From positions 28,710,545-28,774,544 of the forward strand of contig NC_088790.1 in NCBI RefSeq assembly GCF_949628265.1: 64,000 nucleotides of DNA, written 5' to 3'. A program made the position numbers and the translations under genes. The DNA is from Cloeon dipterum (Eukaryota > Arthropoda > Insecta > Ephemeroptera > Baetidae). Shown here in pieces: positions 21,833 through 31,996 of this stretch; the first letter of the stretch is position 1, and every line of letters begins with the position of its first letter. The notes under the pieces were generated by a model, which saw only the letters and a list, made by a program, of their open reading frames with translations, did no database searches and was not told the DNA's origin.

Positions 21833-22818
21833 TCACTTTTTAAGTACCTTGACGCCATTTTGGCTGATCTTCAGCATTCTGCCAGAAGTGGTGTCAAAAC
21901 TACAACAAAGCAGTAGTTGTAATAACCTCAAGAGATATTCTCCAGGATTGAATTACCTCTGCGCCAAATCCGCTCCAACAACGTCATGGATTTGGTATTT
22001 TGTGCCGAGAACGACAGTCTTCTCCAGAGGCCTCCCCAGCAATTCCTTAAATTTCAAATAATAATTTAACTTCTCTGCATTTTAAAAAAGGTTTTTTGAG
22101 TACCATACCCTTTCCAATACTTGGTTGTATTTTCCCTTCTTGATCAGTGCCAGGACGGTCTTGCGTCCTTTCGTGAAGGCTCTGATGAAGTTTCCAGCGT
22201 TTGGGAAGGACAGGCTGTAGGTTTTGGCGTCCTTCAACACCAGGTAACCAAAGTGCATCAGCTCCCTGAAATGATTTACTTTAAAATCCACTTCATAATT
22301 CGATAAAACGGCTCACTTGGCTTCGGTTTTCGATACAATCGACTCCAGTCTTGTTTTCTCGATCTCAATCAGACCCAAAGGTATAATTTTTCCTAAATAC
22401 TTCGCAACGGTTTTGTTTCCAGGGTAGCAAACATTGGCAGTTTTAAGCATGTCCTCGGCCAAAATTACAGCTCTGGACTGCAAATCGATGCCCAGTTGGA
22501 AAACGCAGATCACACCATTGCTCCGTAACGAATTCTGAAATTTAATTATTTAAGAATTTCGGTTTTAGGGTTTAAATTTAAATCTAATTTTACCATTTCC
22601 CGGTCAACGATAGTCCGTGATGGAACCAAGTCGTACACTTGATGGATCATCACCACGGCGGGAATTTTGTTTGAAAACCGTAAAATGGGAAAATCTTTCC
22701 CAATCGAAATCAGGGCCTCCAGAGTTTTGCATGATGACAATGACTTGGGAATTTTTATCAGAGGTTCGTCGGCTTCGTTGCTGTTTTCTGCTCCTGGCTC
22801 ATGATGTCTTTTGCTCAT
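21833..22818 (-). CDS. STK19: STK19 homologue (winged-helix protein of transcription-coupled repair)
   Basis: Five exons (22818-22594, 22534-22317, 22265-22109, 22045-21957, 21899-21833) keep phase and give about 251 residues, close to the 254 of the human winged-helix form. Recognisable blocks are IPAVVMIHQVYDLVPSRTIVDREMNSLRSNGVICVFQLG, MHFGYLVLKDAKTYSLSFPNAGNFIRAFTKGRKTVLALIKKGKYNQVL, LGTKYQIHDVVGADLAQR and a TTSGRMLKI tail. STK19 was once called a kinase, but it is built from winged-helix domains and acts at stalled RNA polymerase II in nucleotide excision repair. There are no kinase motifs here. The ATG follows directly after a CAG acceptor, so a non-coding leader exon is likely near 23081-23140. 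It is head to head with the gene at 23634. Confidence 0.85.
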
Positions 22819-23622
22819 CTGCAATGAAAACGACCTCATTAATAATATTATTAAAAGAAGTCGAAATTTAAGCACAAAATTATTACTGACTTTAGTACAA
22901 AATATGTAAACACCAATTTTACGCAAGTGTGACAAATTCTTAGTATCTAAATAATTATCTGACCCTCTATTCTTCGTGTTCTTCACATCAAAATACGAAT
23001 TTAAGTCCAGATCGCGACCTGATCGCGACTCCCAGCTCCCAGCAGGCCAGGAATCCAGTTTTTGTTTACGTTTGATCTTCACCAAACATGAGGATTGAAG
23101 CTGCTCGCCATTATTAATTTCCCAATGCAGATTTCTCACATGTGAGATTTAAACGCAGAGATTTTTAAATATTGGCGTTATATGCGTTATGTATAATTAT
23201 CAAGTCTCCTGATGATTTTTAACCCCTTCGAGCTGCTTCCAGCTGGCGCAGCTGACTGAGAGGCCCATACACTTATTCTGAATTCTGATTGGTCGAGAGC
23301 GGGAGGTGTGCAACAGGTTTTTATAGTGGGGCGATTTGATTGGTGCAGCGGCCAAAGAACGCGGGATTCTGCAGTGCGGTCTTGTAAGGTCAGCTTTTCA
23401 ATGTTATTGTTGGGAAAAGAAGAACCAGAAAACTGCCAGAGAAGACAAAAATGGGCTCTAATGCCCCGAAAACAGTTTGATTTTGATTGTTAGCTGAAGC
23501 GTTGTCGTTTTTCGCGACTGTGGGAGTGTCGTTTCTGTAAGTTCTGTCGGAAACAGCTGACAAATAATGCATGGGTCGATTTATGGATGCGATTTTATGT
23601 TTGTTTATATTGCCTTTTACAG
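22819..23622. promoter_or_regulatory. Probable shared promoter of STK19 and the FIRRM-like gene
   Basis: The two genes diverge from this segment, which has no TATA box. On the plus side a leader exon ends at 23383 (GTAAGG) or 23388 (GTCAGC) and is spliced to 23623. On the minus side a donor GTGAAG near 23081 could join a leader to the STK19 start exon. Confidence 0.45.
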
Positions 23623-23633
23623 GTTTATCAAGA

Positions 23634-26600
23634 ATGTCGCAACTGCAGTCGTCTCTAGATGTCGACCTGGAGCGACTGCCGAGCCTCTCGAAGGAGCAGA
23701 TTAAGGAATACCTAGCGAACAGACTTCCCTTTTTGAAGATATCCTTTTCTCTAAATTATATTTTATTTATATATTGCTTTTATATTCAGCGTTGCAATGG
23801 TTTTCCTTGACCTTAAATGATTACGAGTGCATGAAAAGTTCCTCTGCTAATCCAGGAGATGCTGTCACGGCCAGCTGCATTCTCTTCACTCACTGTCTTC
23901 CGGTTTTTGACAACATTTCTGAAGCAGAAAAGAATTTCCTGTCGCCCGTTCTGCCACTATTTAGTAAACTTTCTACTGAGGTACAAAATGTGAAACCTGA
24001 CAGCATATTAAAGTAATGAATTAAATTCTGTTTAGATATTTACCAACATAGAAAATCAGCTGCAAATCAGGGAATTGAATGTAGATGATGGCTTGCTGCA
24101 AGTAAAATAATCAACTTTTAATAAGAATGGCTTGGATTAAAACTCAAATACGCAGGTGCCTGGTATCCTTGCCCAATGCATCAATTCTTGCATCCATTTT
24201 TACGTCAGCTTGGAAGGACTGCAGCCTTTAGACCTGAAATCTTTCAAAGACAGTTTGTTCCAAGCTGTTGTCAACTTGCTGGAACACTACAGCAACAGGT
24301 AGAGTTTCATATCTTAAAAATTGCGTGGTTTAAAATTCTGTTTGCAGCAAAAGGTTTCTAAATACGAGCTCTGCTGAGGTCTTGATCGATCTTTCAAGAG
24401 AAGTTTCAGCAGTCCTGTCGAGTCTGATTGTTTTGTTCAAGGATAAAGTTAATTTCGATGAAACGGAAAGAAATCAAGAGGCAGACCACATTTTTGCTAA
24501 GAGTAATTTTTTAGTTTGGAGTTATTTTCTGTACTAATTGCATCTGCTGCAGCCATTGATTTTTTCTTCGACGTCAGCCGTTTTGCTCAGCAGGCCGAGC
24601 TAGCCCTGCCGTTGCTGGCAAAAAGTTGGAGAGTTTACCACAGTTTAATCGCATTTGTGAGGAGGAACGCAATTCCAATTGACTTTGAAGTGATTCGTCC
24701 TGCTATTTATTTAAGCGAGCAAGTTTTGCAATATGCAGAAATCTCTCTTGACGAGGTAATTTGCATTCTTTTCCTCTGGATCCAAAGGAGATATTATTTT
24801 ATTTATGCGAAATTATAAAAAAAATTATTAAAACCACAATCTTATCTTCATGTTAAATAATTCCAAATTCACGGGTATGGTTATTTATTACTTTCCAGCA
24901 CATACAAATATTTATTTTCTATTTACAGACGGTTCCTGATAATGGTGCTGAGCGGCTCGTGAAATTTGCTGTGTTTCTTCTACAAATTTTAAACACAATG
25001 ACTGGAGGCAACATTGAATCAAGGCTGGTATCCCGCCTGCGAGACGTTTTTAAGCTCATTCTATCCCTTCAAAGGTATTAATTCCCATTTTGTACTGTAA
25101 CAGATTTAAAACTAATTTTCGCAGATGGTCAGAGCCAGTTTTACAAACAAGGGAGGCTGCGGTTACCAATCGACAAAAGATGGTTAGTCAGGAAATCGTT
25201 GCCCGAGTTAAACTCATGGTTGAAAATTTTCTAGACAAACCTGACTTTCCAGAGGTAGGGTTTCCGTTGTCTTCAGAGGAAATGTTTTATTGAATTATTT
25301 TCTTCAGTGGCTGTTTGACTTGAGATTTGAGGATGAACCAGTCCAAGAATTAATGCTGGTAGCCACCGTTTTAGAAGAGGTGGGGATGAAATGTTCTAAT
25401 GAAACAAGCAGAATCCTCTGGATTAATTATTCAAGAGATGTTAACATCTTGAGCACACTCTTCCGCTTGATTGATAAATGTAAGTACCAACAAAAACAAA
25501 TCAGCCCAAGGGGTTTCTTATCATGAAGTTAAATTATTTATTAATTTAATTCCAGGTCCTCTGTCCCTGTCCAACTTAGACAGCGGCATCTACGACTCCT
25601 GCCTCTCCTCCGGCTGTCTCTTCCTGGTGTCCTTGGACGCCGAGGAATTCATCGTGGCCGAAAAAACGCTGCTGCAAACCCTGTGCGGCTCGTGGGGAAC
25701 GGCGTGGCCGTGGCTGCTGGCGTCCGACCTGTGGGTGTGTCTGACCAAGAGCAGCAATTCCACGCAACTGTGTTTGGAGCATGTGTCCACGCTGCGTTTG
25801 CTTTCCGAACAGATGCCTGTTGGGCCTCAGAGGCGGGTGGTCACCTCCCTTTGCCAGCGGCTGACTGACGTCATGGCCCAATTCCCTGGGAATGGGGAGG
25901 TCGAGTCAGGCGAGCCGCTGATGGACTCTAAAGTGGACCAGGTCAAAGCCCAGATTGAAGAGTTTCTTGAGCGGCCCTCAGAGGTGTCTTTTCGGCAGTG
26001 TTTGGATGCTGTGGACCTGATGGGCCGCAAGAATGTCAGGGTAGAGTTGCTGGAGGTGCTGCTGCGTCTGCTACCCTTCTGCCACGACTTGGATGAGCTT
26101 TCCGAGTGCATGGGTCTCAAGGTCAGTGTTTCCTTAATTATTCCTGCTTATTTGGTGGTTTCATAAAAAAGTATGGTATTTTTTGGTATTAAAAAGGAAA
26201 CTAAAATTTATAAATGGCAATGAAATGTCCAACTTATTGAATTATGAATCATTTCACCCTTAAATCTCAAAAACAAAATTATAATTCGTTAATTGATATT
26301 TAATTTTTTTCTCCTCACCATCTTAAATAATAGGTGTTGGCTACCTGCGTGCACTACACTCCTCTCCTGGACGCGCGGGCCCTGGACACCCTGCTGACGA
26401 ACGTGCCTTTCTTCTGCTCGCCGGCCCTGCGGGTGGCGTCGCTCGAGTTGCTCTGGCGGCTGAGCAGCAGGAGACTGGACGCGTCCTCCGTCGTGCGGCT
26501 GGTGTCCGAGGCGTTCAACGACCTGCTGCAGCACCACAGCGTCGTCGTGCGCAAGGCGGCCCTGCAGACGTTCGTCACGTTCGCGCAGTGCTCGCCGCAC

Positions 26601-28392
26601 GAGGACGTCGTCCCAATGGCAGTGGCCAACAACAAGGCCCTCCAGCTCACCGTGTCCGCCTTCATCCAGAAGCAGGTAGGCAGAGTTTTTATTTACACTG
26701 GAAAAAATCCCCGAAATTGTTGCAAGAAAGCAGAAAACTACTCTAAAATCGTTTCTGCGCTTAATTTTTTCTTGACTTTGGGGAAAAATTTATAAAATTT
26801 ACGAACACCTGGAAAAAGTAGGTTAATTTTTCCTAGTTTTTGAAAGAAGATAAAAATTACAATTATAATTTTTCTGATGCAGCCTTTTGGATGTCTGCTC
26901 TAACAATTTCAGCAAACCATTAATTTAGAAAAAAATCAGCAAATTAACCTTTTTAAAACTTTGAATTTCCTTTTTCACTGTTAAAATTGTCAGAAATGTG
27001 TATGTTAAAATGCCCTAAATTGTTATCTCTAGCTCAAGTACTAGTTTTTTTTTTTCGTGGGATAATTGCAGGTGAGTGACAATTACGGCGTCGACGAGGA
27101 AATGCGGCGGCTGTCCAAAATCGAGTGGGCCCCCTGTGACGAAATGAGAGTCGAGAAAATCGCTGGACTTCGCTTTAAGCCAAATGAACAAGATACCCCG
27201 CCGCGTCTGCGGACGCCCTCCCCGGAAAATACCCTTAGCCAGGTTAGTGTCTTTCACTATAATAGAGGAAAATACGGAAGTTTTACAAAAAATGCAATCT
27301 TTTTTTGGAAATTTTAGGGATTTTTTTTTTAAATGCAGTGCAGTCATAAATTTATACCAGTTTCTTGCAGGCAATGTTTGCACTTAAAACTAATTTTCTA
27401 ATTATTTGCTCATGACCTAGACTTGAAAAATTGTCAGAGAGAAAATTTTGGTGATAATGATGCAGAAAATTGCAATTTAAAAAAATCACAGTACATAGAG
27501 GAAATATTTACTATTCTGACTACAAATTTTAGATTTCCACAGGGGAAAAATGGGAAAAATTCATTTCTCGCGCAAGAAATTTTTAAAATTTGAGTGGCAA
27601 CACCAGTGGTGAAATAACTGGGTGGTAAGCTAATGCAATCCTGAGAAATTTTATTAATAAAATTCTAATATATCATCCTCTTCTGAATGGTTAAATGTCT
27701 AAGAAAGATTTTCATTGGGTTCGCTGTCAACAAGCTTGATCAAATGAACACTTAATTAATGTCATCGGTCAAGGTCAAAGGTCATTACAAGACATTTTTC
27801 GTGATACTAAATTAATAATCCTCTTTTTTAAATCTATAAAGCCACTCTTAAATTGTCCTCAGGCACGTGTGGACTATTGTGAAAATTTTAAACTTATTTT
27901 CGCTTACATTTTTGAAAGATTAAAATTTGAAACTTGAAAAAAATCATACTTTTTTGCAAATATTTTCCTTATTAAAAATCAAGGTACCTTACTGAACTGA
28001 ATGGGGTTAACCCATCCTCCACACCTAACTCAAAATAATTTAACTCCCTTTAAAATAATTATCCTCCTGAATAATTCATATTTTTCACTTAATTTTTATA
28101 TATCAATATTTTTAGTTTTAATTATATGAAATTAATCTACGCCTTTCTCGGATGAAGCAAATTAAATAATTTGAGGATTTTGTGATTTTTCCAGATGAGT
28201 ATTGGCAGTGCGATCTTTTCCTCGGGGTCACCGGAAGAAAACTCGGCGTGCGACACGCAAGTGGCGGAGCTGACTTCCTTTATTGATTCGTTAGTGAAGG
28301 AATTGAAACACGAAAAACTCAGTGCCAAAAACAAAAAGGAAATCAAAAAATCCGTCGTTAAGTTGCAAGGACTGTTAGACGACACATTTTAA
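23634..28392 (+). CDS. Large helical-repeat protein, probable FIRRM (C1orf112) homologue
   Basis: Thirteen coding exons keep frame: 23634-23738, 23825-23980, 24036-24101, 24156-24298, 24348-24502, 24553-24755, 24929-25074, 25125-25254, 25308-25479, 25556-26121, 26334-26675, 27072-27242 and 28195-28392. They give about 850 residues, close to human FIRRM (853). The protein is all alpha-helical, HEAT-like, with a conserved-looking centre (WPWLLASDLWVCLTKSS, LCLEHVSTLRLL) and a coiled C-terminus. FIRRM works with FIGNL1 to remove RAD51 in the nucleus. I assign the family from length, helical layout and remembered resemblance only; another HEAT-repeat protein is possible. The first intron is an AT-AC U12-type intron. 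Exon 11 is notably GC-rich. Exon 13 could hold a separate start (ATG 28195), but its frame joins exon 12. Confidence 0.65.
23739..23824 (+). other. U12-type AT-AC intron
   Basis: The intron starts ATATCCTTTTC and ends ATTAC. The sequence TTTTCCTTGAC, the U12 branch-site consensus, has its branch adenine about a dozen bases before the end. The flanking exons join in frame (...RLPFLK | ECMKSSS...), and no GT-AG alternative keeps the frame. Confidence 0.9.
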
Positions 28393-28958: not shown

Positions 28959-31792
28959 ATGAGCCACCCCGACGTCGAGCTCCAGAGGCTCAACGACCGG
29001 CTGTCCATACCTGGACAGACCAATGGACGGCAGCTCCAAAGACTGGACACTCAGACGGCGGATCCAGCTGCAAGTCACTTTTTATTTATAAAAAAATTAC
29101 GGTGACAGTGATAGAGGAAGGAAATTAATTTTTGTCTAAATTTTCAGCATTGGAAAAGAGTTTTCAACAAGGTGAGTCAATAATTTTCTTATCCTCCTTG
29201 AAGAGGAAATATAAAAATTTGTAATATATTTTTATGGAAGCGGTTGGACTTAATCCTTATCAGAGATAAAGGCTTGGCCTTGTGTGCCAATATATCTGAT
29301 TTTTTTAATATTTTTTTGAATATTTTTAAGTACGATTTGGATGCCGACGGCTATTTATCCCTGGCGGAAATGAAAGAAATGCTGCTGGCGGCCGACTACG
29401 CTGCCGACCTGCCGCAGGACGCCGTTCGCCAAATCGTCGCCCTGGCCGACGAAAACAACGACGGCCGACTGAATTTCAAGGAGTTCATGAAATTGGTATA
29501 ATTCCATTCGACACACTCGGCCGCAATTCCTATTATAAAAATTCCTCAATAGGTTCATAGCGAGGCGATTCCCAGGGGCGTTTTGTCGCGGCTGCTGCAC
29601 GGCTACGTCCACAATTTGATCGTTCCCAGGGTGTTGCCGCACGACGTCCCTGACGGAGAGTACGAGGAAGCCTACTCCTGCTGTCCGCCTCCGATCGCCA
29701 TGCTTGTTGTAGCTTTAATTGTGGTAATTGCGATGATTTGTGTAACCATTTTACACAACATATTTTTATAGAGCCACTTTTTTTGTTGAAATTTTTCCTA
29801 TTTTTTAATCTGTGATAAATAAATCTATTTTACTTTATTTTCAAAATCGCGTAATTTTAATACTTACAAAAGAATAAGTCTTATTTTTGTTTTTTGTCCA
29901 CATTTTTTCAACAAAGAAAATTATCTAATCATTGCCAATCAGTGCATAGATGACGTCACAATTTTCTGGCTGTCTCTTTATCCAGCAGCCAGTTTAATAA
30001 AAAAATCCTATTATAAGACAATTTTTTCCCAGATGACGATTTTCCTGATCGACGTGACGTCAACCAAGGACCCATACAGCGTCAACGGCCCACTTTCCTC
30101 GGTGCTAATTTACAACCCGCACAAAAGACATGAAGCTTGGCGCTTTCTCACCTACATGTTCGTTCACGTCGGGTAAACTTTGGAAACTTTTATATCCCCA
30201 GGCGCATTTTTAATAAAATAAATTTGTACAGGGCGATGCACCTGATCGTGAACATGGTGGTGCTGCTGATGCTGGGCATCCCGCTGGAAATGGTGCACCA
30301 CTGGTGGCGCGTGCTGATCGTCTACCTTGCTGGCGTGGTGGCCGGCTCTCTCGGAACCTCCGTCACCGACCCCTACGTCTATTTGGCTGGCGCCTCCGGC
30401 GGCGTCTATGCCATCATCACCGCCCACCTGGCCACTATTATCATGGTGTGCACCACTTGTTGCTTTCTCATTCCTAGTATTTTTTCATGAGAAAATCTTA
30501 TCTTTTAGATAAGGCTTGCAATTTTTTGTTGATGTATTACATCAAATTTTTTTCTAACAAGGAAATTCTTTTTAATTTTTGGTAAAATTATTAAGTTTGT
30601 GTAGTGTCTAGAGCGTCCATCAAGCTGGGAAATATTTGGGCACCCGGGAATACCTGAAATCGTTTTTTTGTGACAGGAATCCTGAGAGGGTTTTGCCAAT
30701 TAATAAATGCGCAAAAATACCAGCAGGAAATATCCACCAGTTTTGGTTATTTCCGCATTTTCAGAATTTAAATGTCCCATTTTGCGTCTATAGAGTAAAA
30801 ATTTACGTTGAGTGTTAAAATTTTTGATATTTTGGTAAAATCAGAATATTTTTTACTGTTTTGTAAAAATCCCTTCTTTGGTAATCCATCGAGCGAATTT
30901 TTTATCTTGAATTAAAATTAACGTTTTTTGGGAAAAAGAGCAAAATTGCAGAAAAACGCAATGCGGTGGATTTTTCCCGGAAAAATGCGGATTTTGGTGA
31001 ACCCTGATCCAAATGGTAAAATTTGGTAGCATGTACCAGGGAAGAATAGGCGCGAACTAGATTTTTTCATTTTGCGTGCGTGTTAATTACTTACAATTAG
31101 TGCGTAGAGCAAGAGAAAAAATGTTTTTTTTTTAATATAAAATTTAAATTGGACACCTTTTACTCCAAAATTAAAAACTTTGAGACATTAGATTGACCAG
31201 GATTTCCTGAGAAGGGTTTTTCACGTTTTGGGTTTTCCCTAAGAAATAAGAAAATTTTCCCACGAACCCGGGAAGTAATTTTTGGGGTAAAGATGGGTAA
31301 ATAATAATCCCAATCTAAGAGATATTACTTTTGAGAAAAAAATAATTGTATTAAAAATCACCTTTAAATTAATTAATTTATGTTCATTATCAATTTCAGA
31401 ACTGGTCAGAAATGTCCTTTGCAATTTACCAGCTAGTTGTGTTCACCCTCCTGATCGGCTTTGACGTCGGCACCGCAATATATCAAAGATACGTCTCCAA
31501 GGTCGAAACAAACGTGAGTCTGGTCATCTAATTGTAAGAGACAAAAATCCAGCTGAATTATTTTTTACTGTCCTAGGTTGGCTACATGGCGCACTTCGGC
31601 GGCGCGCTTGCTGGTCTGCTCGTCGGCATCTACGTGCTGCGCAACCTGAACAAAAAGCCGTGGGAGAAGAAAATCTGGTGGGCCAGCCTGGCAGTGTTCA
31701 CCGTTCTCATCGGCATCACGATCGTGTGGAACATCGCCTTCCCCGAATATTTCCCAATGCCTGTCTACAATGCTCTGGACATGGAGCCGTAA
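28959..31792 (+). CDS. rho-4: Rhomboid-4-like intramembrane serine protease with EF-hands
   Basis: Eight exons (28959-29069, 29148-29171, 29331-29495, 29553-29723, 30033-30172, 30232-30445, 31400-31513, 31577-31792) encode about 384 residues. Exon 2 is a 24-base micro-exon (HWKRVFNK). Residues 46-100 hold two EF-hands (DLDADGYLSLAE and DENNDGRLNFKE). A first membrane segment lies near 145-165, and the rhomboid domain has HLIVN (207-211), catalytic Ser259 in GASGG and His319 in AHFGG. Rhomboids cut membrane proteins inside the bilayer. Calcium-binding N-termini are typical of Drosophila rhomboid-4 and vertebrate RHBDL3, so a calcium-controlled protease in the secretory pathway or plasma membrane is expected. 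Intron 1 starts GC rather than GT. The stop is only 204 bases from that of the convergent TRMT11 gene. Polyadenylation signal at 31938-31943. Confidence 0.9.
30690..31013. mobile_element. hAT-like MITE, copy 4, in a rhomboid intron
   Basis: The left end (GAGGGTTTTGCCAATTAATAA then ATGCGCAAAAATACC) and the right end (GGTGAACCCTG) match the family at 6544 and 11296. It lies within intron 6 of the rhomboid gene and has no coding sequence. Confidence 0.7.
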
Positions 31793-31996
31793 TCAGCCTT
31801 TAAACAAATTACTTGCGTGCCTTTCTATGCTGCCTATTACGCTACATTTGCAGGGGAATGTGTCATATCTCAAACTAAAATAATTATTTTCCGAGATCAA
31901 ACTTTCATTATTTTGTGTATATACAATATTAGAGGAAAATAAAACAATGAAACAAATAAAGATCTCTTAAGTAATACACGTTGTTTGACTGCTTTC

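Follow-up and report, generated by a model that had tools for sequence, protein, structure and literature searches.

A putative U12-type AT-AC intron between the first two coding exons of a mayfly FIRRM-like gene

We identified what is very likely a functional U12-dependent AT-AC intron at positions 23739-23824 of the 64-kb stretch of mayfly DNA analysed here (the window), lying in the first coding interval of a very probable orthologue of the DNA-repair gene FIRRM (C1orf112/FLIP). The signals of the minor class occur together at this site, the join restores a long open reading frame and the genome contains the RNA genes of the minor spliceosome. The intron looks genuine but ordinary within its known class, its main use being in tracing when the minor intron of FIRRM arose.

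Results

Signals and coordinates of the intron

The intron starts with ATATCCTTTT, ends with TTTTCCTTGACCTTAAATGATTAC and is flanked by exon sequences AAG and GAG (Table 1). Its 5′ end matches the U12-type 5′ splice site ATATCCTT exactly at 23739. U12-type branch sites approximate TTCCTTRAY and lie some 10-15 nt ahead of the intron's 3′ end, and the core TTCCTTGAC at 23803-23811 is close to this sequence. The combined pattern ATATCCTT-N40-70-TTCCTTRAC-N5-13-AC gave a single match in the 64-kb window and was absent from all 100 dinucleotide shuffles. With 5′ site, branch site and terminal AC all present and the pattern unique within the window, the original prediction of a U12-type AT-AC intron is upheld, and we infer from these signals that the segment would be spliced in vivo.

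Table 1 Coordinates of the FIRRM-like gene model, its AT-AC intron and associated signals within the window
Feature	Position	Strand	Details
FIRRM-like gene, hand-built model	23634..28392	+	13 coding exons, 12 introns (11 GT-AG and 1 AT-AC), 850 aa
First coding piece	23634..23738	+	35 codons from ATG 23634
Predicted AT-AC U12-type intron	23739..23824	+	86 nt, phase 0; from sequence and frame
U12-type 5′ splice site ATATCCTTTT	23739..23748	+	Predicted to pair with the 5′ end of the genome's U11 and with U6atac
U2-like internal acceptor TTTTATATTCAG	23788..23789	+	Within the AT-AC intron; a decoy or a potential alternative site
U12-type branch site TTTTCCTTGAC	23801..23811	+	Presumed branch A 23810, 14 nt before intron end
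Terminal AC, 3′ end of intron	23823..23824	+	Intron termini AT and AC
Predicted spliced junction	23738/23825		...TTTTTGAAG joined to GAGTGCATG
Second coding exon	23825..23980	+	Starts GAG TGC ATG
Candidate leader-intron acceptor	23621..23622	+	Score 9.3, upstream of start codon

Coding flanks, leader and start codon

A coding model built from the gene's other exons against its introns gave the first coding piece 32.2 bits in the required frame, the highest value among the remaining five frames being 21.3, while the intron scored as non-coding (-18.6 to -35.5); GC content is 51% in the former and 24% in the latter. The second coding exon, which belonged to the training set of the model, scored 23.4 bits in the continuing frame. 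Elsewhere in the window 32.2 bits was reached by 2285 of 23367 open 105-nt frames and by 220 of 6344 GC-matched open frames, a background that takes in the exons of other genes, and 2067 of 6812 GC-matched stretches were open in a given frame. The coding score of the first piece is good, not extreme.

According to the original prediction this intron opens the gene. It is the first coding intron, although not necessarily the first intron, given the candidate acceptor at 23622, ahead of the start codon, with which a leader intron may end; the best-scoring leader donor is found at 23389 (AAG/GTCAGC, score 7.1). A further acceptor-like sequence falls inside the AT-AC intron at 23789, with a score of 6.3 that is equalled or exceeded at 310 sites on both strands of the window, and for that reason it carries little weight as evidence.

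These leader signals open an alternative in which translation starts at a downstream ATG (Met38, 23831, or later), a U2-type leader donor is joined to 23789 or elsewhere, and the AT-AC signals are idle or only occasionally used. Besides the internal acceptor and the available leader donors, such a start would agree with the alignment to human FIRRM (provisional sequence, see below), whose Met1 falls near residue 58, about 22 codons downstream of the intron; the homology thus needs no N-terminal extension, and the human protein offers nothing against which to check the first 35-codon piece. We consider this very unlikely: the score of the internal acceptor is a common one in the window, a transcript spliced to it would carry two short upstream ORFs (ATGs 23797 and 23817) before Met38, the 35-codon piece scores as coding in the frame required, at a level attained by 220 of 6344 GC-matched open frames, and the joint occurrence of 5′ site, branch site and AC, not seen in any shuffle, would have to be a coincidence.

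Alternative joins

The original claim that no other join preserves the frame proved too strong. When GT-AG, GC-AG, AT-AG and AT-AC joins spanning 31 nt or more were enumerated from the start codon to 23980, 148 were in frame (23 GT-AG, 34 GC-AG, 45 AT-AG and 46 AT-AC, intron 23739-23824 being one of the last), among which 23738/23825 is the one with the full U12-type signal set. Donor 23739 is common to six in-frame joins. The nearest of its five other ends, an AT-AG end at 23827, is in frame with the loss of one Glu and lies 17 nt from the branch A, and is disfavoured. Joining the same donor to the internal AG at 23789, which is absent from the donor's in-frame ends, gives a phase 0 exon of CGT TGC AAT GGT TTT CCT TGA that ends in a stop. 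Retention of the segment likewise runs into a stop at 23808-23810 (open frame 23568-23810).

That the major spliceosome removes the segment, using a GT-AG pair within the flanking exons that preserves the frame, appears extremely improbable, even with 23 such pairs to choose from. The pair with the best combined score, 23661/23722 (donor 2.7, acceptor -0.5), falls within the range of the gene's own 11 GT-AG introns when these are scored leave-one-out (donors 1.7-8.5, acceptors -4.3 to 9.1), and because the splice model is built on only 11 introns the scores by themselves do not decide against a weak GT-AG join. Its combined score is however far under those of the real introns as fitted by the self-built model (donors 4.9-9.9, acceptors 3.0-12.4), joins of this kind would remove or substitute large parts of the coding flanks, and the U12-type signals would again be left to coincidence.

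A GT-type U12 5′ splice-site word, GTATCCTT, is also present at 24163-24170 inside a coding exon of the FIRRM-like gene. On the plus strand the scan met its next branch-site word at 26130, and the splice-site word is probably due to chance.

Identity of the gene

Joining 23738 to 23825 produces an 850-codon frame without an internal stop, its stop codon ending at 28392. All 12 genome matches of the 850-aa protein (E up to 0.001) fall at its own locus and the same search found no second gene copy; with the frame intact and no second copy found, a pseudogene was rejected.

The human FIRRM query was a provisional sequence, for which a score of 790 bits to PF14868 vouches over residues 176-728 only, the published protein length of 853 being the check on residues 1-175. 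Against it BLASTP returned an E value of 6e-9 over an 800-column alignment with 19% identity (BLOSUM45, composition correction off, one-sequence target), and phmmer an E value of 1.6e-6 (one-sequence target), owed mostly to the C-terminal part (10.9 bits), with the N-terminal piece at -0.8 bits. The global alignment score was 110, compared with 12.8 +/- 7.3 (largest 42) for 300 shuffles, a z of 13.4, and the model is colinear with the provisional human protein over most of its length.

Family-level signatures are weaker. DUF4487 (PF14868), which is said to be carried by all FLIP orthologues (PMC5897033), scored 12.3 bits, under the Pfam cut-off of 25, and a six-frame genome search with PF14868 gave no match here but was equally silent in all 14 controls, which makes it uninformative. 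The WCF tripeptide, named as a motif of the FIRRM family (PMC10411901, PMC8164572), is absent, the aligned stretch LLASDLWVCLTK reading WVC, which makes 'FIRRM-like' the safer label. Low conservation is to be expected in this family, since plant and human FLIP proteins are reported to share only 12% identity; orthologues have been reported from arthropods (PMC5897033). Among PDB chains neither the 850-aa protein (E up to 1) nor the provisional human sequence (E up to 0.001) had a match. The BLASTP, phmmer and shuffle results sustain the earlier naming of the gene as FIRRM-like despite the sub-threshold DUF4487 score, and on sequence comparison the gene is very probably orthologous to FIRRM. 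A chance resemblance in a mis-modelled region (pseudogene or wrong exon), for which it could be said that the looser AT-AC pattern is as frequent in control as in genomic sequence (3 places each), is hardly credible with the 850-codon frame intact over 13 coding exons, the 12 genome matches confined to one locus and the protein colinear with its human counterpart.

Minor-spliceosome components

The genome encodes minor-spliceosome RNAs, as the original prediction of a working minor spliceosome would require: U11 (92.9 bits), U12 (105.8), U4atac (93.6) and U6atac (86.7) were each matched over the full model length above the Rfam gathering score, with at least one copy of each among the best 39-48 first-look candidates that were scored. 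The predicted pairing of the intron's 5′ site with the 5′ end of U11 is -10.2 kcal/mol (three exon bases included) and with the U6atac stretch -7.1 kcal/mol, and that of its branch site with the branch-recognition stretch of U12 is -8.7 kcal/mol. When all 12-mers of the intron were ranked by U12 pairing, those starting at 23797-23801 took the five best ranks, the branch site being the best place. PDCD7, a U11-snRNP protein, gave two above-threshold matches, of which the larger contains three internal stops, as would be expected of a six-frame read through an intron. Two zf-U11-48K zinc-finger matches were found with a short model that also responds in 1 of 14 control genomes (an archaeon).

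Other minor-intron candidates in the genome

The genome comprises 190 Mb in 10 contigs, the window falling on contig C5. Alone, the 8-base 5′ site had 6386 matches genome-wide against 5646 in the control, and the looser AT-AC pattern and its reversed control each occurred at 3 distinct places (4 rows for the former). Since this pattern by itself does not rise above the genome-wide control, the case for the AT-AC intron rests on its context. The stricter pattern ATATCCTTTT-N30-60-CCTTRAC-N5-13-AC was found at 4 distinct places (5 rows) against 0 in the reversed control: the FIRRM-like gene, two genes which we take to be ZNF830-like and POLE2-like, and a further locus (L027). Open coding flanks join in frame at an end allowed by the pattern in three of the four, and at L027 only if the intron is extended by 3 nt beyond the pattern, to 92 nt. 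The ZNF830-like candidate carries ATATCCTTTTC and TTTTCCTTAAC (loci L014/L015), and a looser-pattern locus, L013, also joins in frame. The GT-AG minor pattern was present at 5 places against 2 control matches genome-wide, all 5 joining open frames.

Pfam families above cut-off were obtained for 5 of the 9 other candidate genes, namely the ZNF830-like zinc finger and four of the five GT-AG genes (MCM_bind, WD40, PigN and Rpb5), and none for the POLE2-like gene, L027, L013 or a gene presumed to be NAA20-like. These genome counts are minima and no census, the patterns covering only short introns with near-perfect signals.

On the minus strand of contig C1, ATATCCTT recurs over ~152.6-214.3 kb, often at steps of ~1.08-1.44 kb, a pattern suggestive of an extensive tandem or satellite array close to the beginning of the contig. 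Tandem TTAGG was absent from the four contig ends inspected (4 kb each).

Discussion

Proposed splicing and genomic setting

Minor splicing proceeds from U11 to U12 and then to U4atac/U6atac with U5. Applied to this intron, AUAUCCUUUU would be recognised by U11 and UUUUCCUUGAC paired by U12 with the branch A at 23810 bulged, after which U11 would be replaced by U4atac/U6atac with U5 and AAG/GAG would be joined in phase 0. An annotation allowing only GT-AG introns would mis-model the first coding junction, and the AT-AC intron corrects the gene model.

Head to head with the FIRRM-like gene lies an STK19-like gene on the minus strand (~22050-22800), in which one exon piece scored 18.7 bits to Pfam Stk19 (cut-off 27); a promoter region may thus be common to both genes, each with a putative role in genome maintenance. 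At 23288-23366, in the presumed promoter, two ATTGG (inverted CCAAT) alternate with two GCGGGA, an arrangement as in cell-cycle gene promoters. Downstream, at ~29200-31800 on the plus strand, ORFs resemble by eye a gene for an EF-hand and rhomboid-type membrane protein.

Comparison with known minor introns

Minor introns in FIRRM are not new, as human C1orf112 (FIRRM) has already been reported among 18 human twintron genes, in all of which the ancestral intron is described as U12-type and as conserved in vertebrates (PMC3564746). The C1orf112 twintron is reported to consist of an outer U12 and an inner U2 intron (PMC8329584), and its U12 variant to encode 718 aa, 135 fewer than the 853 aa of the U2-a variant (PMC3564746). 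Residue 136 of the provisional human sequence is Met, and because the 135-aa difference fits a start at Met136 the human twintron is plausibly located no further downstream than codon 136. Of the literature matches listed for minor introns of FIRRM/C1orf112, these two papers name the intron.

The mayfly intron may descend from the ancestral U12 intron of vertebrate C1orf112. The gene family is the same, with a minor intron reported in vertebrates and predicted in the mayfly. The two differ in that the vertebrate twintron contains an inner U2 intron, whereas the mayfly intron has no complete nested one: 23739-23824 holds no GT...AG pair (no GT between the 5′ site and the AG at 23789, and no later intronic AG), so a fully nested U2 intron is not available. 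A U2-type intron reaching in from outside, from a leader donor to 23789, is possible at the site of the U12 intron. We think it unlikely, if worth stating, that splicing by this route skips the first coding exon and starts translation at Met38, the AT-AC intron itself being a still-pure-U12 orthologue of the ancestor of the vertebrate twintron; if true, minor-spliceosome activity would set whether the full or a shortened FIRRM N terminus is made. Should the position of the AT-AC intron match that of the human U12 intron, the minor intron of FIRRM would predate the split of the mayfly lineage from vertebrates, and the mayfly gene would supply the pre-twintron state, making the U12-type ancestry of the vertebrate twintron testable from outside vertebrates.

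Diptera, springtails and mites are reported to have greatly reduced numbers of minor introns (PMC10639083). The original prediction that AT-AC introns are rarer still than minor introns at large holds for some insects, their reported share of U12 introns being 8.6% in honeybee and 8.3% in Anopheles, and not as a general rule, the share in the fly being 47% (PMC7367187). The mayfly genome has a FIRRM-like gene together with full-length genes for the minor-spliceosome RNAs; FIRRM is said to be missing from D. melanogaster (PMC10411901).

Two known insect introns offer the closest comparisons. Intron 1 of fly CG11839/ZNF830 is reported as an AT-AC U12 intron (PMC2831892), of the same class and termini as the intron predicted here, and the ZNF830-like gene of the same mayfly genome has an AT-AC candidate of its own; it is however a different gene with a phase 2 intron, and one that flies keep although they are said to lack FIRRM (PMC10411901). 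The Drosophila prospero twintron (PMC3564746) likewise places an AT-AC U12 intron beside U2-type signals in an insect coding region, as appears to be the case here. In prospero the AT-AC intron is reported to be nested within a U2 intron and both are used, whereas the mayfly intron contains a single internal acceptor-like site, recognised from sequence.
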